This document shows positions 2,749 through 64,000 of a stretch of 64,000 nucleotides of DNA, one piece after another (positions within the stretch are counted from its first letter, which is position 1; every line of letters starts with the position of its first letter). The DNA lies in contig CM049306.1 of assembly GCA_026874595.1 (NCBI GenBank), positions 14,283,019-14,347,018 of the forward strand, written 5' to 3'. Position numbers and translations under genes: made by a program. The notes under the pieces are model-generated. The model was not told the DNA's origin, did no database searches, and saw only the letters and a list, made by a program, of their open reading frames with translations. Source of the stretch: Sipunculus nudus (Eukaryota > Annelida > Sipuncula > Golfingiida > Sipunculidae).

Positions 2749-3303
2749 AAATAATCAGGACTGATTTTATGCCTGTTCTTTCACACTATCAGTTCAGTTT
2801 GCTTTATACAAAAGTTTCCCGGCAAAAACTTTCCCAGCATGCTGTTTAAAACATACCTTGTTATGGCTCTGCATATTGGTAAACACAGGCCATGTGTCTC
2901 TGTCTACAATAACAAGGCAGCATGTCCATAGTTCCGACTGTGAGCCATAAAACGCATTGTTTTTGATATTGAGAATATGTATTACATTTTTTTTAACTTT
3001 AACATGCAGTGTTTTAGCCAGTAGAAATATGTATTACATCTTTTTGGCCAAGTCAGTCAGGGTATCACCTGATTGACATGTGTTGTTGCTCTGCAATGCA
3101 CATGGCCCCACCTGCTGTGTTTATGTTGACACCTGTGATTGCACCCAGTCCACTGTTTTTAACACATGATTAAAGCAGTGAGCATATGGTTTAACACAAT
3201 ATTTTGACAGGTACAGATTTATTTGAAAGGGAAGAATTAGCTAATTTACATGTTAATTCAACATGTTATAATTATAGGTGACTTGGCCCCTTTAATAAAC
3301 CTG
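2749..3303. repeat. Dispersed repeat R2, copy 1
   Basis: Matches 35115-35610 over its length in the same orientation. Shared blocks include 'ataatcagga', 'tctttcacactatcagtt', 'acaaaagttt', 'aacacaggcca', 'atgtattacattttttt', 'ggccaagtcagtca', 'gctgtgtttatgtt' and 'aatattttg.caggtac'. Both copies end in 'ggcccctttaa'; read on the minus strand this gives TTAAAGGGGCC, which would fit a TTAA-targeting DNA transposon end (piggyBac or Kolobok type). In this copy a TTAAAGGG also lies near the left end (about 2738), but the second copy lacks it, so the left border and class stay open. Confidence 0.75.
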
Positions 3304-7849: not shown

Positions 7850-8808
7850 GGGTGTATTACACAGTGTGAAAATGAGGAGGACAGCTCTTTGGCCTTGACT
7901 TTTGCCTCTGTGACCGTAAACTAAATAGGGTTCTTCATCCTATGGGCAAGCCATATGAGCAAGATGACACTGACAGATGTTGGTCAAATGGTTTGGCCTA
8001 AAATGGGTCCGCAAACTTTTACAAGAAGTGGGTGCTGTTGCCGTGACCTTTGTCCATGTGACCTCAAACTAAATAGGGTTCTTCATGCATGGGTGGATGA
8101 GCCATATGTGGAAGGTTTTGGGTGAAACTGTTTGGCTCACCTACCCATGGATGAAGACCCCTACTGATTTTGAAATCATGGGGTCAAAGGTCACGGCCAC
8201 AGGGCCCACCTCTTGAAAAAGTTTGTGGACACTTTTAAATCCAAACCGTTTGACGAAAACCTTTCATCTTGCACATATGGCTTACCCACCTATGGATGAA
8301 GACCCCTATCAATTTTGAAGTCACAGGGTCAAAGATTACAGCCACAATGCCCACTTCTTGAAAAAGCTTGTAGACCCATTTTAAGCCAGACTGTTTGACC
8401 AAAACCTTTCATCTTGCAAATATGGTTTACCCACCAGACTGTTTCAGGGTCCACAAACCTTTTCAAGAAGTGGGCTCTGTGGCCGTGACCTTTAACCCCA
8501 TGATTTCAAAATCAATAGGGGTCTTCATCCAAGGGTAAGTGAGCCATAATTGCAAGGTTTTTCTTCAAATGGGTCCACAAGCTTTTTCCAGAAGTGGGTC
8601 CTGTGGCCGTGATCTTTGACCCTGTGACCTCAAAATCAATAGGGTTTTTCATGTATGGGTGGGTGAGCAATATGTGCAAGATGAAAGGTTTTGGTCAAAC
8701 GGTTTGGCTTGAAATTGATCCACAAGCCAATTCTGGATGGACAGCTGGACAGACAGACGGACACACAAAAGGAAGTGTTACTTCGTTGCAAAAGTTGCAA
8801 AGGGGATA
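7850..8808. repeat. Repeat R3: alternating-orientation arms of a mollusc-type repeat
   Basis: A unit containing 'gtggccgtgacctttgacc', 'cctcaaaatcaataggg', 'ttcatgtatgggtgggtgag' and 'atgtgcaagatgaaaggttt' is present in plus orientation at about 7880-8130, in minus orientation at about 8130-8445 (seen as 'gggtcaaaggtcacggccac'), and in plus orientation again at about 8445-8800. The minus arm is itself doubled (8130-8275, 8275-8420). The block could fold into long imperfect hairpins. It ends with a 'gacagacagacggac' run, as many mollusc repeats do. A perfect DR1-type nuclear receptor site lies at 8181-8193. Confidence 0.75.
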
Positions 8809-9139
8809 ATATATAAGTTTATATAATTTTTGGTGGTCTGTAGTCTTATTCATTCAGATTTACAGTTATCCAAGTTGGATGCGCATAATAAATTTTAATG
8901 CCTTTTTTATTAATTAATTTTTTAAAATTGCTGCCTTTGTACACAATTTTAGATGTTTCAGAAAACCGTTACATTTATTCAGAAGAACTATTTGGGCTTT
9001 TATGTTAATAAATTGGATGTTGACAGGGATTTACAATTATGATCGAATTAGAATTTATGATCTAATGGGATATTAAATATTATTCCACCAGCCAAGAATA
9101 CAAAGAATATTCTAAGATTTCAAGATTTACAAAAACCCT

Positions 9140-9262
9140 TGTAGAATATAGGTCATATTGACTTAATTTTTTGTTTCTAGGGAGATTTACATGGACCTTT
9201 CTGGATGTCAAGTTAAAACTTTCTGGTCCTAATTATGGTTAAGATCTGTGCTCTGCAAATGG
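9140..9262 (+). repeat. Degenerate single unit of the 340-bp satellite
   Basis: The order 'agaatataggtca', 'cttaatttt..gttt', 'agggagattt.catggaccttt', 'ctggatgtcaagtt' and 'tctggtcctaattatg' follows the satellite units at 11268-12741, especially the last unit. This is a solitary, diverged fragment about 2 kb upstream of the array. Confidence 0.55.
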
Positions 9263-9412
9263 CTGGGTGAGCAGCCAGCTATAGGACACAAATAATTGTT
9301 GCTATATTGATCTGTAGATTAGAAAGCTGATCTTTAGGAAATGAACCTGGCCTTCTTAAAACTTTACAGAACTGCCTTCTTACTGCAATAAGCATCATTT
9401 ACTCATTAACTT

Positions 9413-9570
9413 TGCCAATCCTTAGGAGGTTAGGTTTTCATTCTTGTCTATTTGTTTGTCTGTTTGTCAGCAGGATTATCCAATATCTACTTAATCATTT
9501 TCAATGAAAGTTTGTGGAGGAAAAGAAGCAAGTGAAGACCTCATTAGAAGATCTGGGTAATGGTGCAGAT
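9413..9570 (+). repeat. Dispersed repeat R4, plus-strand copy
   Basis: Contains 'aggaggttaggttttca', 'tttgtttgtctgtttgtcag' and 'caggattatcc', a pattern common in lophotrochozoan genomes. The reverse complement of 48640-48815 gives the same order (aggaggttatgtcactt, gtctgtctttttgtttgttt, cagcagggtgatgg). Class unknown. Confidence 0.6.
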
Positions 9571-11267
9571 CCAGAGAGATTGTTTTACTATAATGGATGA
9601 GCAATTCTAGTTACAGACATAAGATGCTGCATTTTGGAAGGCCTCATTGTAAGGTGGTCAATAGAACAGGTACTGGGTGAAAATGAGTAATGAGTACCAT
9701 AAATGGAAAACATGAATGCCTCATTCACTATAAATAACTCTATGGCTGGCAAGGGGATTTGAAAGTTAAGACACTAATCTCAAAATTATTTTCTTCTGGA
9801 ACCAATCTATATTTCTTCCAGCTGAATGAATACAATGTTTGAAAAGTATCTGAAGACATTACATTCTTGGGACACCATGTAAACTGGTGGAAGTGCAATA
9901 ATTTTATTGCCAGAAAAGTGTCCACAGAGAAGTGTGGTTACTTCAAAAGACCTGCTCCTGCCTGGATAAAAAAGAGACTGGTTATAAGGCAATAACTACT
10001 TTTCTGTTGATGGACTTGACAACGAGTCTCTGTAGTGTTAGAGTGAAAATCCCTCAGGTATCACCTGTCATTTGGTCATTAGTAAACAGAATTTAGAAAA
10101 ATAATAATTCACTGTAAATCAATTATAGTTCCCTGCTAGTGTTCTATAATGATGAAAGCAAGACACTGTACACCCACTGTAAGGTTTCTATTTTCTTACT
10201 ACCAGTGTTATATGTATTTGACTTCATTACTAACATTTTGACGGGAAACATGGGTAATATTATACTTGCATAGTTGTATAAGTTAATACAGGTAAGGTAG
10301 AATTTCAAACAATACAAGTGACCCAAAGGTTATTTCGCTCAGAAGAATCCACAGCACTGTGCAAGCACATCCAAAATATAATGTTACATTAATAAATTTC
10401 ACTTGTACAAAATAAACCATTCTATCAAGTTTGCAGCACATAAAATGAAACTACAGCTTTTACAATGGGAAAATGCATTGAGGTATTAATTGTGACAACT
10501 ACTTATCTGATGTAAGAAAAAATGTTCACTAGGCTGTAACATATTAAGTCCAAGTGACCTCAATCCAGCAAAATATTTAATTATTAATTTAAAATAATAG
10601 AATAATAGAACAATGTATGTATTAAAGTTCTTACTGTTATTAAAATGTACCTTTGGCCTATTTCAAGTTATTTATCTCCTCAGAGATATAAATCTGATTT
10701 TGTAATTAAAAAAAAAATAAGAATGTGTATTATCTTAAATCTATGATGAATATAGGGTTTACCTAAAGTATATATATTCTTAAACAAATATTACAATCAA
10801 AAGCTCAGTTTACTGATGGTGCATGGTAATGATAAATAAAAGAAATACACCTATAGCTTCACAAATTATGTTACAATTCCTATATTAAAAGAACATGAGA
10901 ATATAAATTTGAAACTGATTAAAATACTGTGGCAGGAAAATAATGTAATGTTCTTAGTGACCATGGATGAAAAATCACTGCAGTTCAACATGACTGAAAC
11001 TCAGCTGATTTAAAATCTGTTCTACCTTTCATTAACAAGTGACCCATGGTTCATGACGCTCAACCGACTGACATGTTGATAATATGTCCTTGCACAGACA
11101 ACTAATTAAGATAGGTGGCATCATTGTTCATGCATATTAGCTTAAGTTCATCAAGACCCATAAGCACAACAAATTTGATTACAAACAAACCAACCTGTTA
11201 TGAGAAATCTAGCAATTCGTGTGTATTTTGCATTATTTCTGGTGTGCTCAAACATACTCCAAAACTC
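9571..11267. other. AT-rich DNA without recognisable gene
   Basis: Only short AT-driven open frames on both strands. No repeat partner seen in the window. Nothing named. Confidence 0.55.
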
Positions 11268-12741
11268 TGAGAATATAGGTCACAGTGACCAAATTTCAGG
11301 TTTATGGGGAGAACTTGGATGAAGTCTCAGGATGTCAAATTAGAAGATTCTAGGTCTAGCCGTTATGATTTGTGACCTGTTAATAGATGACTGCATCTTT
11401 TAAGGTTTCAAAATAGAGAAAAAAATAGTAAAAATCGAAAAAAAAAACAGGTGGCGCCACAAGTCTGCAGAAACTGATGAAACACTCCATGGTCAATAGC
11501 CATGCAAAAAATCATGGTGATCAATGCATTAGTTGTTCAGAAATTTGAGCTTTTGTATCAAATTTTTCATTATTCTGGGGGGGGGGGGGGGGGGGTACTT
11601 CAGAGCCCCATAGCTTGAAGAATATGGGTATCAGAGACCTAATTCCAGGTTTCCAAGAAGGCTTTTCATGGACCTCTCTTGATATACAGTGAGAATATTC
11701 CAGATCCAGCAGTTATGATTTGTTCCCTGTTAACAGTTGACGGCATCTTTTAAGGTTTCAAAATAGAGAAAAAATCAGAAAAAAAACAGGTGGCGCCACA
11801 AGTCTGCAGAAACTGATGAAACACTTCACGATCAATATCCACGCAAAGAATCATGGTGATCAATGCATTAGTTGTTCAGATATTTGAGCTTTTGTATCAA
11901 TTTTTTTATTATCGCGGGGTTACTTCGGAGTCCCATAGATGGAAGAATATGGGTAACAGAAACCTAATTCCAGTTTTCCAAGAAGGCTTTTCATGGACCT
12001 CTCTGGATATACAGTGAGAAGATACCAGATCCAGCAGTTACGATTTGTACCCTGTTAACAGTTGACGGCATCTTTTAAGGTCTAAAAATAGAGAAAAAAA
12101 AATAGAAAAAATAAAAAAAAAAAAAACAGGTAGCGCCACAAGTCTGCAGAAACTGATGAAACACTCCACAATCAATATCCATGCAAAGAATCATGGTGAT
12201 CAATGCACTAGTTGTTGAGATATTTGAGCTTTTGTATCAAATTTTTCATTATTCTAGGGGGAGGGGGGGGGTACTTCGGAGCCCCATAGCTTGAAGAATA
12301 TGGGTAACAGAGACCTAATTCCAGGTTTCAAAGAAGACTTTAAATGGACATCGCTTGATGTAAAGTGAGAAGATTCCAGGTCCAGCAGTTACAATTTGTG
12401 CCCTGTTAACAGATGAAGGCATCTTTTGAGGTCTCAAAAATAGAGAAAAAAAATCATTAAAAAATCGAAAAAAAATACAGGTGGCTACACCAGTCTGCAG
12501 AAACTGATTTATCACTCCAAGGTCAATAGCCATGCAAAAAATCATGGTGATCAATGCATTAGTTGTTCAGATATTTGAGCTTTTGTATCAAATTTTTCAT
12601 TATTCGGGGGTTACTTCGGAGCCCAATAGCTTGAAGAATATAGGTAACAGAGACTTAATTCCAGGTTTTCCAAGGAGATTTTTCATGGACCTCTCTGGAT
12701 GTAAAGTTAGAAGATTCCAGGTCCAGTGGTAACAATTTGTG
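11268..12741 (+). repeat. Tandem satellite, ~340-bp unit, about 4.3 copies
   Basis: CAGGTGGCGCCAC or its variants mark the units at 11448, 11787, 12127 and 12478, giving periods of 339, 340 and 351. Each unit then reads 'aagtctgcagaaactgat', 'catggtgatcaatgca.tag', 'gagcttttgtatcaa', an optional poly-G (19 bases at 11577-11595; interrupted at 12257-12271), 'ccatagcttgaagaatatgg', 'cttttcatggacctctct' and 'ttaacagttgacggcatctt', ending in a poly-A-rich spacer. The first unit is partial and more diverged (from 11268), the last ends near 12741. The poly-G length differs from unit to unit and is absent from the second. Frames of about 65-80 codons inside are by-products of the repeat. Confidence 0.9.
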
Positions 12742-12836
12742 CCTTGTTAACGGAAAGACAGCTGGATGGCTGGACGGCTGATGGACAAAGAGTGATCGCT
12801 ATAGCTCAGATGACTTACAGTCAACTGAGCGAAAAA
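12742..12836 (+). mobile_element. Hairpin-bearing tail of the satellite-containing element
   Basis: After the last satellite unit comes a 'gctggatggctggacgg' run and then a hairpin: GCTCAG (12804-12809) and TGACT (12811-12815) pair with AGTCA (12819-12823) and CTGAGC (12825-12830). The same tail closes the element at 22770-23351. This suggests the 340-bp array is an internal expansion of an interspersed element whose 3' end is this hairpin, as in non-autonomous Helitron/Helentron-like elements of bivalves. The superfamily is not proven. Confidence 0.6.
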
Positions 12837-31148: not shown

Positions 31149-32302
31149 CTAGAATATGGGTAGTCGACAAGCGACTACATGTATCCGCCGAAATCAGAGT
31201 AGGACGGGTGAAGTGAGGCATGGATTGAGTGGCAAGGGGAAAAAGAGTTACATGTGTTACATATTAGAATGGATCTCTGCCAAGTAAACATGATTGTAGG
31301 TGGCGCCACCTGTTATTTGAACGAGAAACTATCCAGGATGTATATGCATGTCGAATTACAGGTAATTTGGTCAAATCACTGCAGAGATATGAGTTATTTT
31401 AACCCAAGGCAGACAAACAGATGGGCACTGTGCAAAAATGGCTGCAGGTGGTGCCACAATTTTTGTAAAATTTTTTTCCTGATTGGTCAAACGAGTCCAG
31501 AGATATAAGCATGGATGTCTACAGCGTGAACGTGAATGTAGTTGGCGCCACCTGTCATAAAATCAAGAAAGCTATGCGGGACGTATACGCATGCCGAATT
31601 TCAGGTAATTTGGTCATACCACTGCAGAGATATGAGTGATTTTAACCCAAGGCAAACAAACAGATGGACGCTGTGCAAAAATGGCTGCAGGTGGCACCAC
31701 CATTTTTGTGTATGTTACAAAGCTATCCAAGGGCTACATTTGTATAAAATTTTTTTCCTGATTGTACAAACGATTCCTGAGATATGAGCTTGGATGTATG
31801 CAGCATTAACATGAATGTAGGTGGCACCACCTGTCATAAAATCAAGAAGGCTATCTAGGATGAATACGCATGCCGAATTTCAGGTAATTTGGTCAAACCA
31901 CTGCAGAGATATGAGTGATTTTAACTCAAGGCAGATGAACAGATGTACACTGTGCAAACATGGTTGCAGGTGGCGCTACCTTTTTTTTTGTGTATGTTAT
32001 AAAGCTATCCAAGGGCTACATTTGTGTAAAAAATTTTTCCTGATCAGTCAAATGGTTCCCGAGATATGTGGGTTTATGTGTGGAAACAGATGCACAAACC
32101 GATGCTGGGCAGAGAGGAAAGGTCAGAGGTCAAGGCCACTTGGTTAGGCACCAGTTCACATGTGACACGATAATTTGTGTAAGTTTCTGAAAAATCCGTC
32201 CAGTAGTCTCAAAGAGTTCTCCAGAAACGAACGCCGCCGCTGCGGTGACGGAACCCGGTCAAAAACATAGTATCCGCAAAACTTTGTTTTGGCGCATACA
32301 AT
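31149..32302 (-). mobile_element. Helitron-like non-autonomous element 1 with internal dimeric satellite
   Basis: Read on the minus strand it ends in CTAG followed by T (CTAG at 31149-31152). Seven bases inside is a perfect hairpin, GTAGTCG (31160-31166) and CGACTAC (31172-31178) with a 5-base loop. CTRR plus a hairpin about 10 bases away and no inverted repeats is the classic Helitron 3' end. The interior holds about three dimers of two ~140-bp subunits, each opening with GTAGGTGGCGCCACC or a variant (31296, 31445, 31538, 31688, 31817, 31965). A perfect DR1 (AGGTCAGAGGTCA) is at 32120-32132. A GC-rich patch (32229-32250) and an inverted repeat (32270-32282 with 32286-32299) lie at the other end. 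The 5' TC end was not identified. No Rep/helicase coding sequence. Periodic open frames (31254-32147) translate the satellite only. Confidence 0.7.
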
Positions 32303-33003
32303 TAAGGACACTGTAAAACAGAGAGCTTCAGTAGCCTTGCTACATGACAAAGCATTATTTGGGGGAAGTGCTCCACTGATCTGTACATGGACCCCCAAAC
32401 CTAATGAAAAAGTTGGCACTGGTTTTACACACATTTGTGAGTATATGACTTTACTCATTTAAATCAAGTCAGGTATTAATCTACACAGGACCCCATTACA
32501 CTGCCAGGAAGTCATAGATCCATGGATTTTTTGTTCAGGGACAAACTGTATCTAGGCCTGGGGGCAGCCATAAAGACAGGGCCAATTTATTGTGTTAATC
32601 ACATCCTTTATCCCAAGCCTAGGGCAGGCCCACTTCCATAATTGAAAGTTGATTGTAGCTAAACCCTTGTCTAGGTTAGATTAGGGGCATTAGTCCACAG
32701 TATTTATTCATTCTCACTTGACAAGGACAGAAGACCCAACATTACCACTGCTTAATGGATTCTAAATGTGTCAGTAGAAGTCTGGAAAACCTTAAATAAA
32801 ATGACCAGATTTACCTCACATTAGTTTTCTATTATTTTAAACATTTTCCTAGGTTATAATAATAATTTGTAAAAACATAAATATTTTATTTTAAAAGACA
32901 GGGACTTCAGATCCTGAACCTCTTCCAATTTGAGATGGGAAACAGAGAATACTGACCCATCATCACAACAATGATCCAAATGAGAATAACATTTGAAGGC
33001 TAA
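32303..33003. other. No recognisable gene
   Basis: Between the Helitron-like element and the MITE pair. No open frame or repeat that I can support. Confidence 0.5.
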
Positions 33004-33313
33004 AGCCCCCAAAAAATTAAAGGTTTGGACATTTCTCAGGCTCAGCTGCATCAAATTTGACCTTATTTCTGCTGATTTTCCATGTAAATTTATCATTTTT
33101 GAGTTCCAGCTGTTCAGACAATTTTTTTTATAAAATTTTACTGTGTCATGTTGTGTTTTTATCTATTTAGCAAAACAATCCTGTAATTATGATTTTGTCC
33201 CTTGATCAAATGAATTTCATTGAAAACTTGTGATGAAAAGGTAAAAGATTTGCTCCCGAAACAGACATTTCTGAAAAAAGTGCCTGAGGAGCATACCTTT
33301 TTTGCTTTTGGAC
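33004..33313. mobile_element. PIF/Harbinger-type MITE, copy 1 (diverged)
   Basis: Flanked by TAA on both sides (33001-33003 and 33314-33316). Left terminus 'agcccccaaaaaattaaagg' then 'tttctcaggctc'. Right terminus 'gtgcctgaggagcatacc', 'ttttttgcttttggac'. Both are degraded forms of the terminal inverted repeat of the adjacent copy. Internal sequence ('cccttgatcaaatgaa', 'tttctgaaaaaagtgcctgag') also follows that copy. The TAA duplication fits the TWA target of PIF/Harbinger. Confidence 0.65.
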
Positions 33314-33316
33314 TAA

Positions 33317-33604
33317 GGCCAAAAAAAATAAAAGGTATGGTTCTCAGGCACCACCCGCGTCAATTTTTATCCCCCGCATCAACAATTTATATTTTGATTT
33401 TAATCTTTCAAGAAGATGAATATTACAATTTATGTAGTGCTTTTCCCTGTTTTGCAAAAAAAAATTGTTATTTTCATACTTTTCCCTGATCATATGAAAT
33501 TTTTATGGAGACACTCAAAAAAAGGTCAAAAATAAAATACTGCCCGCCTGCGATGATTTCTGAAAAAAAGTGCCTGAGAACCATACCTTATTTTTGTTTT
33601 GGCC
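33317..33604. mobile_element. PIF/Harbinger-type MITE, copy 2 (288 bp)
   Basis: Terminal inverted repeats of 35 bases (33317-33351 and 33570-33604) differ at three positions. They begin GGCCAAAA and end in GGTATGGTTCTCAGGCAC. The element is bounded by TAA at 33314-33316 and 33605-33607, a 3-bp TWA-type duplication typical of PIF/Harbinger. It abuts copy 1, the TAA between them being shared. It is less diverged than copy 1 and so probably younger, inserted next to it or into its duplicated TAA. No transposase sequence inside. Confidence 0.85.
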
Positions 33605-35114
33605 TAACATGGTTTTTTTTATAACATGACCAATCTTTCTTTTTTCATGAAAATCTGCTGAAAAAAAACTGCCAAAAGATCAATTAACTCACAAAAACCA
33701 TGTAAAATTATAAACTGCTGGAATCAAAGATGCTGTACGTAGTATCCCTAGACATTGGTCCAAACCCCTTTAAAAAAGGCCTCCTTCTTCTGAGACATAG
33801 GTCAAGATCACCAGTGTTTGAATGCCTCCAAGAACTTGAAACAATATGTTCACTTAATCCATGGAATAAATTTGCAGTGCTACAGATGTTTTGGGGTTCA
33901 CAAAACTCTAATATTACTGCAGATTATAATTTAAAGATCAAGGTCTATCAAGGTCAACCATCTTGAATTTCAACAGAATTGGTGTATCAAATGTGAGGGA
34001 AAATACGCAGTTCTTTGAAAGCAACTGGGTTGTCAAGAGTCCATTTTTCCAAAGATCAGAGCTTCCGCATCCAACCTTTCTTGAGATATTTTATGTTTGT
34101 GTGATTTTCATCCAAAATGGATTCAATCAAGGTCAAGGTCTCTCCTGGTAAAAGTCAATATTTCAAATAGACTTTGTCCACATGTAAGTTTTGAAAAAGT
34201 TCCATGAATCATTTTTTTCTCCCTTGCAAGGATTCTCAATAGTGGCTGTGCAACCATGCGGAAATCATATAGTACAAATCCCCAACTTTCAGTCTAGGGA
34301 TACAAAGATTTGATGACACTTGTATAGAAATGTGGGACATTTACAAGGATAAAGGTCAGAAATACAGCATGCAGGACAAAATGCATCATGACTTACTTTT
34401 AATAAACAACACAGAACATTATTGGTGGAAATGAAGGGTGGGCTGATATTTTTCACATTAATGCTAAACATGCCCCGTCTGCCCTCATGTCACTTGAACC
34501 TATAAATTAAATCTACAAATTCTGTCAGGTTTTTGCTATCAACAGGCTTGCCAATCAAGTCTTTTCTTTGAGCAACATTAAATTCATGAGGTATGTCCCC
34601 ATGAGAATGAACTGTGAAATGTTTAAGATGCCATGCCCTTCAATACGGATGCCCCTCTTTCTCATCAACGTGAATTGAAACTAGAAAACCTTATTTAGCC
34701 ACTGACAAATTGGTTCACAGCATGAATATGAGATGAAAGAAGGAAACCGGAAGATAGACAGAATAGAATATAATGCCATTCCACCCAATTTTATCACTTG
34801 CTAGTAAAACCAGCTGCCAATAAACTACAATCATCTTCAGAGCATGTGTGCAATCCAAACACCACACTTGTTACCAGAATTTACTTTTCTTGGTAGTGTC
34901 TACAGAATTTTTTAAGAATAAATATGGGATAAACTTTTCATGTTTTAATAAGTTATAAAAGAGCAAAAAATATGACATCCTTGCTTGTTATTATGAGTTA
35001 CATAACAGCAAAAAATAACAATCTTTCACTTCAACAAACAGAAAAACAAGTTTTTTCAAATAAAGGTTCCAATTTCATAAAAATTAATTACTTCAGATAT
35101 TTGTATTATTCGAC
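33605..35114. other. No gene; weak repeat traces
   Basis: 33607-33617 (acatggttttt) and about 33695-33706 (aaaaaccatgt) form a small inverted repeat. 33800-34145 carries 'aggtcaagatcaccagtg', 'aagatcaaggtctatcaagg' and 'ggtcaaggtctctcctgg', a very diverged version of repeat R7. Nothing else recognised. Confidence 0.45.
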
Positions 35115-35610
35115 ATAATCAGGAGCAATATTATGTTTACTCTTTCACACTATCAGTTCTGTTTTGCTTTTTACAAAAGTTTTCCAGCAAAAGCATCCCA
35201 GCACATAGTCTCAGCACCACGCATACGGCTGTTTAACACCTTGTTGTGGCTCTGCTTGTTACTTAACACAGGCCACGTGTGTCTGTTAACCATTACTAGA
35301 CTGCATGACTGAAAGTCAGATTTTGAGTGATAGACCCCAACGTGAAAGCCACAACATGCAATGTTTCAGCCAGCATGAACATGTATTACATTTTTTTTGG
35401 GCCAAGTCAGTCAATGCAGCACTTGTGGTCTGCGCTGTGTTTATGTTCACACCTGTAATCACACACGGTCAACTAGTTTTAACACTCGTGTACAGGAGGA
35501 AGCCATCAGTTTCAGGACAATATTTTGGCAGGTACCGATTTATTTTAAAGGGAAGAAACTTTTTTTGTGTTAATTCGACAGGCTTAAAAGGTGATTAGGC
35601 CCCTTTAACT
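35115..35610. repeat. Dispersed repeat R2, copy 2
   Basis: Matches 2749-3303 in the same orientation and ends 'gattaggcccctttaact'. Slightly shorter than copy 1 through small deletions. A 97-codon open frame across it is not conserved in copy 1 and is not a gene. Confidence 0.75.
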
Positions 35611-35807
35611 AACAAGGCCTACAGGCCTAATGCGAACCTGTGCAATGAGATTACACAAGGTATAATGCTTCAATGCTGGACCATTACTTTTCAAGAACAT
35701 GTGTAACATGTATATGATCAATGCAAGCACTAAACACTTATAACAAGAAACAATTACAAACTAACATCACTGCTGCAATTCTGGCATGGGTGTTCACAAC
35801 ACAAAAA
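35611..35807. repeat. Module R6, copy 1 (AACAAGGCCTACAGGCCT tip)
   Basis: Starts abruptly with 'aacaaggcctacaggcctaa', then 'gcgaacctgtgca', 'caaggtataatgcttcaatg', 'ctggaccattacttttca' and 'agaaacaattaca', ending 'cacaacacaaaaa'. Other copies are at 58324, 59311 and 61271. The left border is sharp in all four while the flanks differ. Two AGGCCT palindromes two bases apart give a compact hairpin at the tip. In this copy the right side is cut by the CTAG end of the Helitron-like element; in the 59311 and 61271 copies it runs on into GTAGCTG(G/A)CACCACC arrays. Confidence 0.75.
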
Positions 35808-37290
35808 CTAGAATATGGGTAGTCAACAAGCGACTACGTGTATCCTCCAAAATCAGAGTGGGACAGGTGAAATGAGGCATCAAATGAGTGGCAAGGGGAA
35901 AAAGAGTGAGGTGTGTTGCATAATAGCCTGGATGTCTGCAGCTGAAATGTGTATGTAGGTTGCGCCACCTACCACAAAATCCAGAAAGCTGTCCAAGATG
36001 TATAACCATGCAAAATTTTAGGCAGATAAGTCAAACCACTACTGAGATATGAATGATTTTAGCCCACGGCAGACAAACAGATGGACACTGTGAAAAATTG
36101 TGGCAGGTGACACCATCAATTTTGTGTATGATTAAGAGATATGTGAGATCTATACACATGCAAAATTTCAGGGGGATATGTCAAACCAGTCCTGATATAT
36201 AATAAGCCTGAATGTGTGCAGCGTATACATAAATGTAGGTGGCGCCACCTGCCACAAAATCCAGAAAGCTATCCAAGATGTATAATCCTGCAAAATTTTA
36301 GGCAGATATGTCAAACCACTGCCGAGATATGAGTGATTTGATCCCACAGCAAACAAACAGACGGCCGCTGTGCAAAAATGATTGCAAGTGGCGCCATCCC
36401 TTTTGTGTATGATAAAGAGATATGTGAGATCTATAAACATGCAAAATTTTTGCCCAATCAGTCAAATGGTTCCTGGGGTATGAGCTTGGATGTCTGCAGC
36501 GTAAATTTGAATGTAGGTGGTGCCACCTGTCATAATATCAAGAAAGCTGTCAAGGATGTATAAACCTGCAAAATATCAGGTGGATAAGTCAAATCAATGC
36601 CGAGATATGAGTGATTTTATCCCAAGGCATTTTATCCCAAGGCAGATGAACAGATGGACCCTGTGCAAAAATGGTTGCAGGTGGCTACACCAGTTTTGCG
36701 TTTGATAAAGAGCTATGGGAGATCTATACACACGCAAAATTTTCGCCCAACTGGTCAAATGGTTCCCGAGATATGAGCTTGGATGTCTGCAGCTTAAACA
36801 TGAATGTAGGTGGCGCCACCTGTCATAAAATCAAGAAAGCTGTCCAGGATGTATACACATGCAAAATTTCAGATGGATAAGTCCAACCAATGCAGAGATA
36901 TGAAAGTTATTATCCCAAAGCAGATGAACAGATGGAGGCTGTGCAAAAATGGTCACAGGTGGTGCCACCATTTTTAGTGTAAGTTATAAAGCTTTCCAAG
37001 GGATACATTTGTGCAAAATCTTTAGCCTTATCAGTCAAACAGTTCCTGAGATATGTGGGTATATGTGTGGAAACAGACGCACAAATGGACACTGGGCAGA
37101 AAGGAAAGGTCAGAGGTCAAACAAAAATGAGGGCGCAGCAGTTCACATGTGACCGATCATAATTCAGAATTTTTAAAAATTCTGCCAAGTGGTTATGGAG
37201 GAGTTCTCTGGAAACCTATGCGGCGATGGCAGCAGCGTCGGCGTCTGACTGAAAACACAGTATCCGCAAAACTCTGTTTTGGCAGATACA
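35808..37290 (-). mobile_element. Helitron-like non-autonomous element 2 with four satellite dimers
   Basis: Minus-strand 3' end CTAG at 35808-35811, then the hairpin GTAGTCA (35819-35825) and CGACTAC (35831-35837) with one mismatch. 'caagcgactac', 'aatcagagtggga' and 'gagtggcaaggggaaaaaga' match element 1. About four dimers follow, opening near 35953, 36235, 36511 and 36806, each with a second subunit opening 'caggtgg..ccacc..ttttgtgtatgat'. The third dimer has a short internal duplication ('attttatcccaaggc', about 36614-36645). A perfect DR1 lies at 37107-37119, and the inverted repeat GTATCCGCAAAAC (37260-37272) with GTTTTGGCAGATAC (37276-37289) ends the homology with element 1. The sequence then runs straight into another array. 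Confidence 0.7.
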
Positions 37291-39540
37291 ATGATTGTAG
37301 CTGGCACCACGAGTCTTATATGCAACGAAGAGATATATAAATATGCCCAATGTCAGACTGATATGTCAAACCCCTCATGTGAAATAAGCAGGGACATACA
37401 CTGTGCAAAAATTACTGTAGGTGGCGCCACAAGTCTTGTACACTATAACGCTACCCAATATGTATAAACATGCCCAATTTTAGGCTGATGTATCAAATTC
37501 CTCTGTAGAAATAAGCAGGCGCATACACTGCAAAAGTCAATGTAGGTGGCACCACCTGTCTTGTAAATGAGAATACCATCAAAGACGCATAGACAGGTCA
37601 AAATATCAGTCCAATACATCAAACTTCCCCAAGTTTGATGCACTGGCCTGACAAGGCTTAGGTGAGTAAGGCAGTTGCCCTCGAGTGACCTGTGACAAAT
37701 TGCTGCCTCAAGCTACTGCACTGAGTAAACTCTTGACTTGAACCTGGCTAGACTGAGTGAATTTTTTACCTATACCTGGCTGCGCTGAGTGAACTCTTGA
37801 CCTGTTGCATAATCTGACACAATTGGCAGTCTGCCAAAGCTATAAATAGATTCAGGCTGAACTTTGGTGCCAAATATGATGCAGTGAGCAGTCTGCCAAA
37901 GCTATAGATAGAATGCAGCTACTGCACTGAGTGAACTCTTGACCTATACCTGGCTGCACTTCTTCCAATCCTGGCACTGCGCCAAAACTATTTATAGAGC
38001 TGACATCATCTTGGCTAATGGCCAACATCAAGGCACTGGCAATCTGCCAATGGTAAACCAAGTGCTGCCATCTGTACACAAAAGTGGTCCCTACTTGAAA
38101 TAACTTTGAAATTTATTTTCCCAATACAAAATGCTTTTCAGCTGACTTTTTATAAAAAAGAAATCAGGAATATATGTAAAATTATTACGGATGCATACTG
38201 AATGCAAAATTAAAATACAAATATCTCACTGAAGGCAAATTCTTGAATCAAGTTGAGTAGGGATACCAATAATTTATAATCCTCCCACAGTTGTCTTTAT
38301 ATACCCACAGAGAGCTGAATATCAATGATTGTAACATTGCCTGGTATGATGAATAACTTAAATCATATATCTAAATTTTTTAAAAGCTTTTAAAAAAACT
38401 TTCTTATCAATATTAACCAAAGATAACCTGAAATCTAATTGTCTAGTGGCATGATGTAATAGATGCTGATTAACTGGTGCCAGGCTAGATGTAACAGCAT
38501 AACACAGCTAACATATATGGTAAAATGACTCAATTCAATCTCCATAATTCAGCCAAAAATTATTCATGTGGAACCATTAATGACAATTATAATAAGAATT
38601 ATTGTAGGGATTATTCTTGTAAAATATTTAACAAAGTGGCTTCAGTGGCATCAGTCAAAAACGTTTTGCATGTTTATAACTCATATAGGAAGACACAGCA
38701 AACTGGCTAAGTTCAGCTTCCTGTAACTCAGGCAAAAAGCACTGAACCAAAACCATTTGAACAAACTTGAATTATCAACATCTGAGGATAATTAATGTGT
38801 GAGATTTAAGAATTTGAGAGTGGTTTTTGAGAAGTAGATCTTTGTAGCCACTGACCTAAAATGGGCTGTTATGGCATATGACTAAATTCAGCTTCCCATA
38901 ACTTAGCCAAAAGTCACTGAAAAGAGACCATTTGGACAAACTTCAGAAAGCACTACCCTAGGATCATTTCTGTGCAATATTAAACATTTTGGCCATATGG
39001 TTTCAGAGAAGATGTTTTTTGTAGCCCTCAGTGTGATACAGGCACTGATGACCCTGTACAAAAAAGGCCGATGCAGGTGGCGCAGCCAATACCTTTATTT
39101 CAGATATGATCTATGTGACCAACATTGGCATAAAATTTGGTGATGATAGCTCCAGCCGTTTCTGAGATTGTAATTTTAATATGCTTTTTTGCACAGTTAA
39201 CAAAGTTCAACCTCCTGTAACTCAGCCAAAAATTTCTGAACTGGAACCATTCGAACAAACTTGAGAAAGATTGTTCCAGGGATCATTTCTGTGAAATATT
39301 GGACAATTTGGCTGGACAGTTTCGGAGAAGAAGATTTTAAACTTTTTTCCCTTTAAAATCTAAGAAAATGCAGTTAGAAAAAAATAAACAAAATCCGATA
39401 TAGTTTTTTGGATGACTGATTATTTGCAAAAAAATTGAAGATGCTAGCTCCTGCCATTTTTGAGATAGCTTTGGTTAACATACAGACAACGCATGACTCA
39501 CGACGGAGGAGGCCGCACAGGTTCGCTAACAATTCACCCA
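37291..39540. repeat. Composite repeat, copy A
   Basis: In order: two to three ~140-bp units opening GTAGGTGGC(G/A)CCAC and followed by 'agtcttgta' (37300-37600); a 32-bp minisatellite 'ctgcactgagtgaactcttg' (starts 37716, 37748, 37780); a palindrome TTGGCAGTCTGCCAA (37823-37837); a block with a 75-codon minus-strand frame (37852-38079) conserved in copy B; an AT-rich block; and about four diverged ~180-bp units around 'taagttcagcttcc.taactcagcc'. It ends near 'cgcacaggttcgctaac'. The 75-codon frame differs from copy B by only a few residues, but so does the surrounding DNA, so this reflects recent duplication rather than selection. Confidence 0.8.
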
Positions 39541-57396: not shown

Positions 57397-57399
57397 TAA

Positions 57400-57798
57400 A
57401 GCTTTGTTTCCATGTATCCGCAAAAAACGTATCCGCAAAAGACGTACGTACGTTCTATAGTGTGCAATCTGCAAAAACTGTTTCCATAAGTACGTACGTT
57501 TTTCTTGTGGATAACCTTTAATGTGCCTCTTTTTAAACTGCAAGGACGACAGGCAGGAAGAAGGTCAATATGTCTCATCACACCCGGCGCCGGGGCACTG
57601 TTGGGAAATGTATAGGCATTTTTGCCAACCATAAAACGGATGAATTGCTCACCGATCCGTTTCGATGCTGTCAGCTTTTGCGGATATGCATGCGGAGCAC
57701 GTTAAAACTGACATATGTAAACAGTTCATCTTAAAAAGAGGGATCCGATTTTTTGCGTACGAGATGTACGAGATTTACGGATGAATGGAAACACAGCT
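57400..57798. mobile_element. CpG-rich PIF/Harbinger-type element (399 bp)
   Basis: TAA duplications at 57397-57399 and 57799-57801 flank imperfect inverted termini: AGCTTTGTTTCCATGTATCC at the left and, reverse-complemented, AGCTGTGTTTCCATTCATCC at the right. The subterminal parts have many 'tatccgcaaaa' and 'cgtacg' motifs. TWA duplication fits PIF/Harbinger. The element is much richer in CpG than its surroundings ('acgtacgtacg', 'ccggcgccgggg'). Short frames inside (57387-57632 minus; 57570-57731 plus, 53 codons) have no transposase or Myb motif I can point to. Confidence 0.75.
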
Positions 57799-58078
57799 TA
57801 AGACGTAGGCATATAAATCTTCAGGCCTCAAAACTGTGTAATACTGCAATACGAAAAATTATTACACTATTTTTTATGATCTCATCTTGCTAACCAGACT
57901 AATCTGTCTCTCTAATATCCCCCTTAGTTCATAGACAAGGCAGGCAGGTATTCCTGCAGTTTAAGCACCAGGATCTGTATCACTAGAGAGACCAGAGAGT
58001 CGTCATATAACTGAAGAATCCCAGTTAGTGTACAGAGCAGGTACATCTGCTGTGGCCAGATATTCAGTCATATTTAAA

Positions 58079-59112
58079 CTAGAATACGGGTAGACCACAA
58101 GCGACTACATGTCTCTGCCATATCACAGAGGCGTGGGTAAAGTATAGGCATGGAATATTCCTGACATGACATGACTCCAAATTTATGGCATCAGATGTCA
58201 ATTAAACTCCTTTATATATGTGCTATTTTCACCAATAACAGACCTACAGATGCATACACCATGCAAGATTTTAGGCTAAGACACTAATCCACTACAGAGA
58301 AAAAGTGCATTAATGTATTCTATAACAAGGCCTTCTGGTCTAATAGGAGCCTGTGCAATGGGATATACACCAGGTATAATACTTCAATGTCAGACCATTA
58401 CTTTTCAAGTACATGTGTAACATGTATTGCAAGTACTAAACGTTTTGAACATTGAAGAAACAATTACAAAAATATTATAGACCGTATCCAAGAACTATGG
58501 ACATGCACAATTTCAGGCCAATGGCAAACTGCTCCAGAGAAAAGGGCATTAATGTATTCTAAGAAAATGGGAAGGTAGGTGGCACCACCGGTCTCGTCTA
58601 CGAGAAAACTTTCCAAGATGAATGTACATGCCAAATTTCATACAAATACATTGAACCACTCCTGAGACATGAGCAATTTTGACCTAAATCAAATGTACAA
58701 ATGAGCATCACACAAAAAAGGGATGCAGATGGCACCACCAGTCTTGAATACGAGATGGAGGTATCGAAGATCTGTGAACATGCACATTTTCAGACTAATG
58801 AACTAAACCAATCACTAAGACAACAGATGGCAAATGCATGGATGGACGCAATGCAGAAATCATTGTAGATGGTGCCACCAATCTTGAGTAGGGATGGAGA
58901 GATCCAAGATCTAGTGACATGCAAAATTTCAGCTCCTGAGATATGGGCTGTTATCAAGAAGACACTCAGATTCATACCGCACAATAAGGACTGCAGGTGG
59001 CACCACCAGTCTTTGTTAGACACAGCTACATAAATGAGTAAATAACTATTCTGGGTTCAGGAAAGATCAGTCCAAGGGTCTCAGAGGAGATCTCTGGAAA
59101 CGAACGCGACAG
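58079..59112 (-). mobile_element. Helitron-like non-autonomous element 3 (diverged)
   Basis: Minus-strand 3' end CTAG at 58079-58082 and 'gggtagaccacaagcgactac', whose hairpin has decayed on one arm. Inside are an R6 module (58324-58480) and four ~145-bp units opening near 58575, 58728, 58873 and 58990 with 'gtaggtggcaccacc'-type cores, mostly carrying CpG-decayed versions. The right end shares 'gtctcagaggagatctctgg' and 'aaacgaacgc' with the ends of elements 1 and 2, then breaks off into repeat R1. Confidence 0.65.
58324..58480. repeat. Module R6, copy inside Helitron-like element 3
   Basis: 'aacaaggccttctggtctaa', 'cctgtgcaatggga', 'caccaggtataata', 'accattacttttcaagtaca' and 'gaagaaacaattaca'. 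More diverged than the other copies; the AGGCCT palindromes are partly lost. Confidence 0.7.
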
Positions 59113-59310
59113 TGGAATCTCAGTGCTCAGGAACTAAGGCTCAATGACTCGGGGGGGGGGGGGGGGGGGGGGAGGGGGGGAATTACAACACCATTGGATA
59201 TAAATACAGAATACAGAATTAAACTCAATGGTGCTTACGGGGACTGGTGGCAGTTAACGCAATTCTGCATATATGTAAAGGATAAAATTTAAAAGTGTTT
59301 TTAAATATTT
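59113..59310. repeat. Dispersed repeat R1, copy 3 (left part, with poly-G)
   Basis: 'ctcagtgctcaggaact', then a G run at 59151-59180 with one A, then 'ttggatataaatacagaata', 'ggtgcttacggggactggtg' and 'aaaggataaaattt', matching 12-190. It stops at the sharp border of the next R6 module. Confidence 0.8.
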
Positions 59311-61270
59311 AACAAGGCCTACAGGCCTAATGCAAACCTGTGCATTTGGAAATACACCAGGTATAATGCTTCAATGCTGGACCATTACTTTTCATGTATA
59401 TGAACAATGCAAGTACTAAACATTTTGTAAAAGAAACAATTACACCAACATCCCTGCTGAAATTCTGGCACTGGTGCACACAACACAAAAACCATTGTAG
59501 CTGACACCACCAGTCTTGTATACTTCGAAGCTATCAGAGATAAACACATATGCCAATTTTCAGACTGATATAACAAACCCCTCCTGAGAAATAAGCAGGA
59601 ACACACATTGTGCAAAAATTATTGTAGGTGGCACCACCAGTCTTGTATACAACAAAGCTATTCGATATGTATAAATATGCCCAATTTCAGGCTGATATAT
59701 CAAATTCCACTGTAGAAATAAGCAGGCACATACACTGTGCAAAAGTCAATGTACATGGTACCACCTGTCTTGTAAATGAGAATACCATCAAAGATGCATA
59801 GACAGGTCAAAATATCAGTCCAATACATCAAACTTCCCCAGAATCTGATGCACTGGGCTGACAAGGCTTAGGTGAGTAAGGCAGTTGCCCCTGTGTGACC
59901 TGTGACAAATTGCTGCCTCAAGCTACTGCACTGAGTGAACTTTTGACCTGCACCTGTCTAGACTGAGTGAACTTTTGACCTGTAACTGGCTGCACTGAGT
60001 TAACTCTTGACCTGTTGCATAATCTGACACAGTTGGCAGTCTGCCAAAGCTATAATTAGATTCAGGCTGAACTTTGGTGCCAAATATGATGCAGTGAGCA
60101 GTCTGCCAAAGCTATAAATAAAATGCAGCTACTGCACTGAGTGAACTCTTGACCTATACCTGGCTGCACTTCTTCCAATCCTGGCACTGTGCCAAAACTA
60201 TTTATAGAGCTGATATCATCTTGGCTAATGGCCAACATCAAGGCACTGGCAATCTGCCAATGGTAAACCAAGTGCTGCCATCTGTACACAAAAGTGGTCC
60301 CTACTTGAAATAACTTTGAAATTTATTTTCCCAATACAAAATGCTTTTCAGCTGACTTTTTATAAAAAAAGAAATCAGGAATATATGTAAAATTATTACG
60401 GATGCATACTGAATGCAAAATTAAAATACAGATGTATCTCATTGATGGCAAATTCTTGATTTAAGTTGAGTAGGGATACCAATAATTTATAATCCATGTA
60501 CAGTTGTCTTTATATAGCCACAGAGAGCTGAATATGCATGATTGTATCATTGCCTGGTATGATGAATAACTTAAATCATAAACCTAAATTTTTTAAAAGC
60601 TTTTAAAAAAACTTTCTTGTCAATATTAACCATAGATAACCTGAAATCTAAATGTCTAGTGGCATGATGTAATAGAAGCTGATAACTTGTGCCAGGCTAG
60701 ATGTAACAGCATCACACAGCTAACATATATGGTAAAATGACTCATTTCAATCTCCATAATTCAGCCAAAAATCATTCATGTGGAACCATTAATGACAATT
60801 ATTATAAGAATTATTGTAGGAATTATACTTGTAAAATATTTAACAAACTGGCTTAAGTGGCATCAGTCGAAAAATGTTTCACAGGTTTATAACTCATAAA
60901 GGACTATACAGCATCTGGCTAAGTTCAGCTTCCCGTAACTCAGCCAAAAAGCACTGAACCAAAACCATTTGAACTACCTTGAATTATCAACATCTGTGGA
61001 TGATTAATGTGTGAGATTTAAGAATTTGGCCCAGTGGTTTTTGAGAAGATCTTTGTAGCCACTGAGCTAAAATGGGCTGTTATGGTAAATGACTAAATTC
61101 AGCTTCCCATAACTTAGCCAAAAGTCACTGAAAAGAGGCCATTTGAACAAACTTCAGAAAGCACTACCCTAGGATCATTTTTGTGGGATATTAAACATTT
61201 TGGCCATATGGTTTCAGAGAAGAAGTTTTTTGTAGCCTTTAGTGTGGTACAGGCCTGATGACCCTCTACA
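59311..61270. repeat. Composite repeat, copy B
   Basis: Begins with an R6 module (59311-about 59495), then GTAGCTGACACCACC and GTAGGTGGCACCACC units, then the same order as copy A: 32-bp minisatellite, TTGGCAGTCTGCCAA at 60033-60047, the 75-codon block (60062-60289), the AT-rich block and the 'taagttcagcttccc' units. From 60040 to 61250 it aligns with 37830-39050 at an almost constant offset of about 2210-2211 with few gaps. It ends at 'gatgaccctctaca', exactly where a new R6 module starts, whereas copies A and C' run on. Confidence 0.85.
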
Positions 61271-62340
61271 AACAAGGCCTACAGGCCTAATGCGAACCTG
61301 TGCATTGGGAAATACACCAGGTATAATGCTTCAATGCTGGACCATTACTTTTCATGTATATGAACTATGCAAGTACTAAACATTTTGAATAAGAAACAAT
61401 TACACAAACATAACTGCTGAAATTCTGGCTTAGGTGCACACAACACTAAAAAGATTGTAGCTGGCACCACCAGTCTTGTATATAAGGAAGCTATCAGAGA
61501 TATATACATACGCCCAATTTCAGACTGATATATCAAACCCCTCCTGAGAAAAACGTGTGCAAAAGTCATGGTAGGTGGCGACACCTGTCTTGTGAGCGAG
61601 AAAGCCATCAAAGACACATAGACAGGTCAAAATATTAGGCCTATACATCAAACTTACCTTGAGTCTGATGCATGGGTCTGACCAGGCTTAGGTGAGAAAG
61701 GCTGTTGCCCCGAGTGAACTGTGACAAATTGCTTGCTCAGACTACTGCACTGAGTGAACTCATGACCTGCACCTGGCTAGACTGAGTGAACTTTTGACCT
61801 GTTGCATAATCTGACACAGTAGGCAGTCTGCCAAAGCTATAAATAGAATGCAGCTACTGCACTGAGTAAACTCCTGACCCATACCTGGCTGCACTGAGTG
61901 AACTCTTGACCTGTTGCCTAATCTGATACAGTTGGCAGTCTGCCAAAGCTATTAATAGATCCAGACTGACCTCTAGCCTGTTGCCAAATCTGAAATAGTA
62001 GCCACACCATTGCATAAGCTCATGCAGGGGCCCTGCCCTGAGGGGCTTGACACCCATGAAGTGATCACATGGTGCCCATGAGGTGTTCACATGTCACCCA
62101 TGAGGTGATCACATGCCATGTGCTTGGCTGCACTGATTGAACTCTTGACCTATATCTGGCTGCACTAAATGAACTCTTGATCTGTTCCCAAATCTGAAAC
62201 AGTTGGCAGTTTCTCAACCTATTTAAAGATACAGATTCAATCTTGGCCTGTTGATATATCTGTTTACACATACTGAAAGACTTTGGTTAAAATTTCTTTT
62301 TTCAAGCCAACATATTCATAAACTTTTTATCAAAATATCT
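61271..62340. repeat. Composite repeat, copy C front part
   Basis: R6 module, one or two array units (61455-61640), then expanded 'ctgcactgagtgaactcttg' units with TTGGCAGTCTGCCAA at 61932-61946. A local 22-bp minisatellite 'cccatgaggtgatcacatg' (starts 62053, 62075, 62097) is found only in this copy. The 75-codon block is missing. Confidence 0.75.
62053..62118 (+). repeat. 22-bp minisatellite, three copies
   Basis: 'cccatgaagtgatcacatgg', 'cccatgaggtgttcacatg' and 'cccatgaggtgatcacatg' at exact 22-base steps. Confidence 0.85.
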
Positions 62341-62780
62341 AGAATAATAAAAGATGCAGTACTTTCATTGTTAAAGGTCCAATAGTTCTGCCAAAAATCA
62401 TTCTAGTAAACTTGAACAAAGGCCACATAGGAATAATTTTTGTGCTGGTGATGATAGCTCTGGCTGTTTCTGAGACTGTCATTTTAGTATGCTTTTTTGG
62501 ACAGATGACTAAGTTCAACTTCCTGAACAAAATTGAGGGAGATGGTATAAAAGATTAATTCTGTGAAATATTGAACAATTTGGCTTGAGTGTTTCGGAGG
62601 AGAAAATTTTTAAAGGGTTTTTTTAGCTTTTTCTCTATAAAATTTAAGAAAAATTTCAGATGGCTAATTTTTTGCATTGAATTTCATGATGCTAGCTCCA
62701 ATCATTTTCAATATAGTATGGGTAAACGTACAGAAGACAAACGCCCCCACACCATCACATTAGTTCACAGGTTCACTAAA
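62341..62780. repeat. Composite repeat, tail fragment D
   Basis: 'ggtgatgatagctctggctg', 'gagactgtcattttagtatg', 'ctaagttcaacttcctg' and 'gaaatattgaacaatttggc' align with 39140-39540 of copy A, with an internal deletion. The end 'ttcacaggttcactaa' corresponds to copy A 'cgcacaggttcgctaac'. Confidence 0.75.
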
Positions 62781-64000
62781 AATTAATACAGATGCATATT
62801 GAATGCAAAACTGTAATACAGATACATCTCACTGATGGCAAAATCTTGAATTAATTTGACTATGGATACCAATTATTTATAATCCATGTACAGCCGTCTT
62901 TATATACCCACAGAGAGCTGTATAGCTGTGATTGTAAACATTGCCTGGCATGAGGAATATCTAAAAATCATAAATATACATTTTTTAAAAGCTTTTAAAA
63001 AACATTCTTGTCAATATTAACTATAGATAACCTGAAATCTAAATGTCTAGAGGCATGATGTAATAACTGGTGCCAGTCTAGATGTATCTAGATGTATCTG
63101 TGTATCTGCTTCACACAGCTAACATATATGGTAAAATGACTCAATTGAACCTTTATAATTCAGCCAAAATTCATTCTTTGGAACCATAAAAGACAATTAT
63201 TATAAGAATTATTCAGGATTATTCTTGTAAAATATTAAACAAATTGGCCTCAGTAGGATCAGTCAAAAAAAATTTTACAGGTTTATAACTCATATGGGAA
63301 AATAAAGCAAAATGGCTAAGTTAAGCTTCCCATAACTCAGCCAAAAATCACTGAACCAAAACCATTTGAACAAACTTGAATTATCAACATCTAAGGATAA
63401 TTAATGTGTGAGATTTAAGAATTAGGCCCCGTGGTTTTTGAGGAGAAGATCTTTGTAGCCACTGAGCTAAAATGGGCTGTTACAGCATATGACTAAATTC
63501 AGCTTCCCATAACTCATCCAAAAGTCACTGAACTTAGACCATTTGAACAAATTTCAGAAAGCACTACCCTAGGATCATTTCTGTGCGATATTAAACTATT
63601 TGGCCATATGGTTTCAGAGAAGAAGGTTTTTGTAGCCGTCAGTATGATACCGGCACTGATGACCCCTGTACAAAAAAGGTCGATGCAGGTGGCGCCACCA
63701 ATACCTCAATTTCAGATATGTCTCATGTGAACAACATTGGCATAAAATTTGGTGATGATAGCTCCAGCCATTTCTGAGATTGTAATTTTAGTATGCTTTT
63801 ATGGACAGATGACTAAGTTCAACTTCCTGTAACTCGGCCAAAAATCACCGAACTAAACCATTCAAACAAACTTGAGAAAGATTATTCCAGGAATCATTTC
63901 TGTGAAATATTGGACAATTTGGCTGAATAGTTTCAAAGAAGAAGATTTTTAAAGCTTTTTTAGCTTTTTCCCTATAAAATCTAAGAAAATGCAGTTAGCC
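62781..64000. repeat. Composite repeat, copy C', cut by window end
   Basis: Aligns with 38190-39374 of copy A ('gatgcatattgaatgcaaaa', 'tataatccatgtacag', 'aacatatatggtaaaatgac', four 'aagttcagcttccc' units). It contains 'gcaggtggcgccaccaat' with an intact palindromic core at 63688-63699. It follows fragment D directly, so tail-to-head tandem copies continue past the window. Confidence 0.85.

Follow-up and report, generated by a model that had tools for sequence, protein, structure and literature searches.

A probable cluster of nested non-autonomous rolling-circle transposons of two families in the genome of Sipunculus nudus

The window analysed here is a stretch of 64,000 nucleotides of the Sipunculus nudus genome (C1:14283019–14347018), and all genome-wide searches covered the 1.43-Gb assembly. 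Positions 31149–39540 had been described, from the sequence alone, as a modular mega-repeat whose parts are shuffled together. Our best explanation, which taken as a whole we hold to be probable, is that the region brings together non-autonomous rolling-circle transposons from two families, here called family 1 and the R6 family, which differ in their ends but carry related satellite-like central repeats. For both families the minus strand is the better one to read. The noted interval contains element 1 and copy A, the latter with element 2 inside it, and the units at 58–64 kb are element 3, copy B and an element made of two fused halves, C and D, that reaches from 61271 to a point some 175 bases outside the window:

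31149..32301, minus strand: element 1, a family-1 non-autonomous rolling-circle element with its 5' end TTGTATGCGCC... at 32301 and its 3' end ...CTAG at 31149, both sharp in the fetched copies
35611..39529, minus strand: copy A, an A-type, HINE-like R6-family element with nested element 2, with ends AACAAGGCCTACAGGCCT... and ...GCACAGGTTCGCTAA
35808..37291, minus strand: element 2, a family-1 element nested in copy A, at a site that is empty in other R6-family copies
58079..59115 (right boundary approximate), minus strand: element 3, a distant family-1 relative with the CTAG 3' end present, whose two parts match relatives at 66–88%
58324..58483, minus strand: R6 fragment in element 3, found in the window copy only among those compared
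59311..61270, minus strand: copy B, a B-type R6-family element with the last ~460 bp (5' end) missing
61271..62779, minus strand: C half of the CD-type element; 62766–62779 is an internal 5' end, and ~700–800 bp found in most other copies are missing at 62445/62446
62780..64000, minus strand: D half of the CD-type element, running to ~175 bases beyond the window (L009:175)

Comparison of the window with itself bears out the recurrence of modules at 58–64 kb, where similarity to the noted interval is clear: 37294–39069 is 92% identical to 59494–61279, and 38178–39377 is 85% identical to 62779–63998, while elements 1 and 2 are ~73% identical to each other. R6, the palindromic 3' end of the R6 family, lies at 35608, 58323, 59310 and 61268, that is, outside element 2, within element 3 and at the head of copies B and C, just as the sequence-only reading had placed it. 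A single mega-repeat spanning 31149–39540 has to be rejected, since the segment between the units (32302–35610) has a sole match elsewhere in the window, that of 35112–35608 to 2748–3295 (64%), a similarity that is found in neither element family.

In each genome-wide search the 40 best of 8,298–11,724 first-look candidates were scored, and proportions out of 39 refer to these copies minus that in the window. Among the scored copies, each recurrent architecture has its parts in one set order. With copy B as the query (8,703 first-look candidates), the match spans R6 edge to query end in 22 of the 39 others, at 93–95% identity, and these represent the plain, B-type order; six start at the R6 edge but are shorter, eight start at query positions 194–200, and three start elsewhere. 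The different combinations of modules that had been noticed do exist, but their source is nesting followed by amplification, with one fixed order for each architecture: B-type (22/39), A-type (8/39) and, in another search, CD-type (31/39).

The A-type architecture is that of copy A. The site occupied by element 2 is empty in all 20 R6-family copies examined (15/15 B-type, 5/5 CD-type), which were picked because they match across it, whereas all eight copies that start at query positions 194–200 carry element 2 there, with the 5' junction intact in seven and deleted in one. Upstream of element 2, R6 is present in seven of these eight A-type copies: five have a complete R6 directly adjoining the CTAG end, in L072 an internal deletion has fused a partial R6 to element 2, and in L074 it was found in a further stretch (L113). 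In L073 no R6 was seen within 1.1 kb upstream. The R6 parts of copy A and the five A-type copies are 93–95% identical to one another, as compared with 88–91% to those of B and C, and the element-2 parts within the nested set are 90–96% identical; such tight identity fits a single origin of the nest and its later movement as a unit. The insertion of element 2 into its R6-family host made no target duplication, and the two have since spread together, with the outer R6 end retained. Host and nested element point the same way, so that copying of the host would run into the CTAG hairpin of element 2; none of the eight A-type copies examined ends at that CTAG.

The CD-type architecture was searched with 61180–62900 as the query (8,959 first-look candidates). 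Of the 39 other copies, 37 start at query positions 88–96, the R6 edge; 31 pass unbroken through the internal 5' end of C into D, three stop there, and five do neither. Most other CD copies contain an extra ~700–800 bp at query position 1266/1267 relative to C of the window. The junction is identical in 6/6 fetched copies, and the outer 5' (right) end was located in five of the six. C+D is a single recurrent fusion with a pair of 5' ends and only one 3' end, that of R6; the possibility that C and D are separate elements joined only in the window is ruled out by the 31 copies with the same internal junction. D starts at a T-rich point in the body common to copies A and B, and the R6 half of the host is missing. 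The junction between B and C was seen in the window copy only.

The ends of both families argue for rolling-circle ancestry, as the sequence-only reading had proposed: family 1 has a 3' hairpin, a CTAG end and no consistent target duplication, and subterminal inverted repeats are found in both families. Two of the features it listed, a CTAG hairpin edge and a CCGCAAAAC inverted repeat, are real but are the 3' end and the 5' end, respectively, of minus-strand elements. The parts of family 1, as seen in element 1, are the following:

31149..31178, minus strand: family-1 3' end, palindrome GTAGTCGCTTGTCGACTAC (31160–31178) and terminal CTAG, with a 7-bp stem in the fold
32270..32301, minus strand: family-1 5' end, subterminal repeat TATGCGCCAAAAC in element 1 and TATCCGCCAAAAC in most copies, with an adjoining inverted copy
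31280..32076, plus strand: GGTGGCGCCACC monomer array in element 1, with six profile hits, all in the training set; TRF period 279 over 31459–32068

Sixteen of the 39 other scored copies match element 1 near full length at 85–89%. The 5' end of the family reads TTG-TATCCGCCAAAAC, immediately followed by the inverted copy; the 3' side carries TTTTGGCGGATAC, the hairpin GTAGTCG...CGACTAC and the terminal CTAG, and the pair of ends is TATCCGCC / CTAG. A scan for both ends that covered the window, L009, L010–L028 and L030–L058 recovered 29 copies, next to 38 unpaired 5' and 10 unpaired 3' motifs, the scan being a loose one and some of the loci being centred on internal repeats. The 5' end is TT in 28 of the 29, in a scan whose 5' motif itself began with TTG and allowed three mismatches. 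An A directly precedes the 5' end in 26/29 copies and TT directly follows CTAG in 26/29, flanks that fit an A^T target. None of these copies has a target duplication of 2, 5 or 6 bp, four have one of 3 bp, and a single copy has one of 4 bp. The empty sites of element 2 read CACAAAAA[C/T]GATTGTAG in 10 of the 15 B-type copies and CACTAAAAAGATTGTAG in the CD-type copies; at the position where an A^T target would need T on the plus strand, the base is T in 3/15, C in 10/15 and another in 2/15 of the B-type copies, and the matching base is lacking in 5/5 of the CD-type. The insertion of element 2 is clean, and the empty sites fit a host origin and an element origin of the A before the 5' end alike. 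The same flanks and empty sites are what bears on a HINE-like T^T target and on insertion between A and T, as in canonical Helitrons and proto-Helentrons.

Like HINEs, family 1 has a 5' subterminal repeat with an adjoining inverted repeat, a matching 3' subterminal repeat and a 3' palindrome. TRF reported no microsatellite in 31149–32301 at its threshold; in mite HINEs a microsatellite is present in some copies only (PMC4067079). The 3' side is also that of a canonical Helitron (a CTRR end, a hairpin ~11 nt upstream and no target duplication), but family 1 is not filed as a canonical Helitron because its 5' end is TT rather than TC. TT at the 5' end together with CTAG at the 3' end corresponds to the published definition of proto-Helentron ends (PMC4067079).

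The R6 family consists of the following parts in copy A:

35611..35807, minus strand: R6, the palindromic 3' end of the family, with palindrome AGGCCTGTAGGCCT and 3' subterminal repeat GCACAGGTTCGC
37292..38000, minus strand: internal part, with GGTGGCGCCACC monomers and a 32-bp minisatellite
38178..39529, minus strand: body and tail units ('taagttcagcttccc' units of ~150–177 bp), ending in a microsatellite and the 5' end

Right ends were located in 12/12 fetched copies (eight B-type, four A-type) and left ends in 8/8 B-type copies previously known to match the R6 edge. Features described for HINEs recur here. The 3' side has GCACAGGTTCGC followed by the palindrome AGGCCTGTAGGCCT; the subterminal inverted repeats are GCGAACCTGTG near the 5' end and CACAGGTTCGC on the 3' side; and a GACGCAC-type microsatellite, recognised by eye, lies beside the right end in addition to the monomer and minisatellite arrays. 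The 5' end itself is TTAGCGAACCTGTG with an adjoining GTCY-like microsatellite. On the plus strand the right flank starts with AA in 9/12 copies, which is consistent with a T-rich target. Among the eight copies with both ends, no shared flank beyond runs of A, hence no target duplication, was seen by eye, no search for empty sites having been made. Beside the 5' end we saw by eye no inverted repeat complementary to the 5' subterminal repeat, a feature described for Cg_HINEs and absent from mite HINEs (PMC4067079).

Both families carry a related GGTGGCGCCACC monomer. Its GTGGCGCCAC core, with up to two mismatches, occurs 34 times in the window, as compared with a mean of 5.05 and a maximum of 11 in 20 first-order Markov sequences. 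A profile built from 25 monomers of elements 1–3 and copies A–C also hits, outside the training set, a 351-bp tandem array at 11325–12751 (four hits in register, E 9.5e-8 to 6.4e-5) and the tail units at 39055–39176 (E 8.7e-4) and 63675–63785 (E 1.8e-6). That array comprises 4.2 copies of its period, and the left flank of L096, a CD copy, reads by eye like its unit. Element 2 and copy B are connected by one BLAST match (67% over 227 columns, E 5e-13). Sharing of the monomer between the families looks old because identity between their monomers averages only 52–57%, a value given here without a shuffled control. In Crassostrea gigas every cluster of Cg_HINE arrays was tied to one pair of flanks in the published study (PMC7492417), whereas the related monomer described here lies behind the unrelated ends of two families; a 2025 review mentions arrays common to different oyster Helitrons and 'shuffled' loci reported there (PMC12628747).

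The two nested architectures could have arisen as follows. A C-type element would have been inserted into another R6-family element, and copying that later began at the outer 5' end would have stopped at the first same-family 3' terminator, that of the nested C, leaving the R6 half of the host behind. In the A-type nest, the R6-family machinery would not have recognised the CTAG terminator of element 2, which has the same orientation, and copying would have continued as far as the outer R6. The enzyme presumably comes from an autonomous Rep/helicase element. The stop at a same-family end in the CD-type, taken with the read-through of a family-1 end in the A-type, suggests that terminator recognition is family-specific.

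Several observations weigh against this explanation. The proportions given above come from a biased sample, the 40 best-scoring of 8,298–11,724 candidates in each search. The explanation does not account for the missing right part of copy B beside the CD element. Among the scored copies we saw no progenitor in which C sits within a host that retains its R6 half, and of the three copies that stop at the internal 5' end of C only L137 has a plainly unrelated flank. L135 and L136 share ~50 bp beside the 5' end of C, with a GGCACC hairpin and CTAG that resemble the 3' terminus of yet another family, so that the two copies speak only weakly for C as a free element. Another CD copy, at C11:50981882, is also directly preceded by tail sequence of the R6 family, but joined differently. 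Element 2 of copy A has a G.T in place of a G-C at the innermost pair of its 3' hairpin, so read-through might reflect a weakened terminator and not specificity. No enzyme-encoding partner was seen, a statement behind which stands no dedicated search for Rep/helicase. Family 1, finally, is a mixture of Helitron and Helentron features, which the HINE label suits less well.

A further alternative is that the CD-type stems from ectopic recombination or deletion between neighbouring R6-family copies and not from early termination. Copies B, C and D do lie close together in the window, and clusters of this kind often undergo recombination between their repeats; however, the junction sets the exact 5' end of C against a T-rich point in D, as a nested insertion would, and nothing corresponding to 37960–38177, which A and B both have, was found at the thresholds used in C or in the extra 841 bp of one other copy, so that homologous exchange is not obvious. 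We consider this origin unlikely. It is hardly credible that segmental duplication of host sequence spread the A-type and CD-type: this genome may contain larger duplications, as three element-3-family matches spaced at ~8.6 kb on contig C7 suggest, but copies of both types lie on many contigs and are bounded by element ends, and no similar pair was found at E 1e-3 when 20 left flanks of 40 bp each (six A-type, eight B-type, six CD-type) were compared with one another. Such dissimilar flanks argue for transposition and against segmental duplication.

Ongoing module capture or recombination, which the sequence-only reading had preferred to simple insertion, is very improbable. In its favour, modules are found in several combinations, unrelated ends carry a related monomer, and the R6 fragment of element 3 replaces, by eye, ~90–200 bp of array present in other copies. 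Against it stand the 22/39 copies that are fixed from end to end, the 31/39 with the same CD internal junction, the absence of R6 from all 39 other copies of element 3 and the empty element-2 site in 20/20 copies; shuffling is largely refuted by these fixed orders. What survives of the idea is that nested insertions moved as units of new composition (the A-type and the CD-type) and that unrelated ends carry one monomer family. 

Of the preferred explanation, nesting followed by re-mobilisation, we would also offer a broader version, to which we give even chances of being right: the two nests would amount to a natural experiment, in which a same-family nested 3' end stops copying and founds a successful element with two 5' ends while a nested 3' end of another family, pointing the same way, is ignored, recognition being family-specific and nesting a regular route to satellite-carrying elements.

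For element 3, no 5' end was recognised, and none was paired in the family-1 both-ends scan. The stretch of R6 that it contains (query positions 254–408) is matched by 0/39 other scored copies and held by 0/29 other fetched loci; where both sides matched, other copies have, judged by eye, ~90–200 bp of array in its place. A single event, an insertion accompanied by a deletion, may explain the fragment. The three element-3-family matches on contig C7 (76296848, 76305492 and 76314141) have near equal scores, which suggests tandem duplication of a larger segment.

In the remainder of the window, the match of 35112–35608 to 2748–3295 has E ~1e-33, and 35112–35608 runs right up to copy A on its left side. 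A comparison of the flank to the right of copy A with 1–31000 gave nothing at E 0.01, and the 2748–3295 region is therefore not an empty site of copy A. Between element 1 and copy A, a near-palindrome of 73 columns (33280–33351) is 82% identical to its own reverse complement. A likely miniature inverted-repeat element, judged by eye, occupies 57399–57799, with 15-bp ends AAGCTTTGTTTCCAT / ATGGAAACACAGCTT that differ by one mismatch and internal GTATCCGCAAAA motifs. Just outside the window and directly beyond the end of D, L009:216–1409 is another family-1 element in the opposite orientation. What had been called a 75-codon block is probably a pair of 75-aa minus-strand frames (37852–38079 and 60062–60289), which lie within repeat sequence; no sign of genes was seen in them, no coding test having been made. 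A known RNA family is ruled out for the window, which has no Rfam match at gathering scores.

The suggestion of an undescribed system does not stand either, since related systems have been published: oyster HINEs (PMC7492417), oyster elements of mixed Helitron/Helentron character (PMC7992393) and Helitron nests that have several termini (PMC3288121, PMC5148889). Cg_HINEs share with the present elements subterminal inverted repeats, a 3' palindrome, satellite-like central arrays, a microsatellite and T-rich insertion without target duplication, and in that study, too, no autonomous partner was identified (PMC7492417). The CTAG elements of oysters are similarly short and non-autonomous, with a 3' CTAG, an upstream hairpin and, in some, subterminal inverted repeats plus an inverted repeat; however, they start with TC and insert at A^T, whereas family 1 starts with TT and may have an A^T or an N^T target (PMC7992393). 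The proto-Helentron of Phytophthora has 5' TT, 3' CTAG and no target duplication in common with family 1 but is autonomous and ~14 kb long, while no coding partner was seen here, where no search aimed at one was completed (PMC4067079). The Pearl elements CvA, CvE and CvG and DTC84, named in PMC7492417 and PMC11136912, are bivalve elements with conserved ends and central repeats, to which ours are likened by description. A text search of the literature for the terminal motifs returned no Helitron-titled paper among the matches listed.

Nested Helitrons that were re-mobilised are described from maize, where multiple termini are attributed to nesting in a related model (PMC3288121), and from Fusarium, where the published model has copying stop at the first 3' terminus (PMC5148889), which yields two 5' ends and one 3' end, as in the CD-type. 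Unlike those nests, the products seen here carry satellite-like arrays, the fused form recurs in 31/39 scored copies, and a nest involving the other family, whose terminator appears to have been ignored, is available for comparison. For the bat Helitron Helraiser, experiments identify the 3' hairpin as a terminator that can be bypassed in favour of another one (PMC4778049); here, in contrast, bypass is deduced from genome copies.

The region, then, is not a new rolling-circle satellite system. As far as could be told, the two families appear to be new, but they belong to a known kind and show a readable history of nesting. The direct experiments on termination that are known come mainly from Helraiser (PMC4778049), with few others; the contrast between the A-type and the CD-type adds evidence from sequence on where rolling-circle elements stop copying. 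The region is mostly ordinary, consisting of small non-coding rolling-circle elements that inserted one into another, after which some spread in nested or fused form. What appeared to be a shuffled mega-repeat becomes a readable history of insertion, nesting and re-mobilisation, in which satellite-like arrays are found behind unrelated ends.

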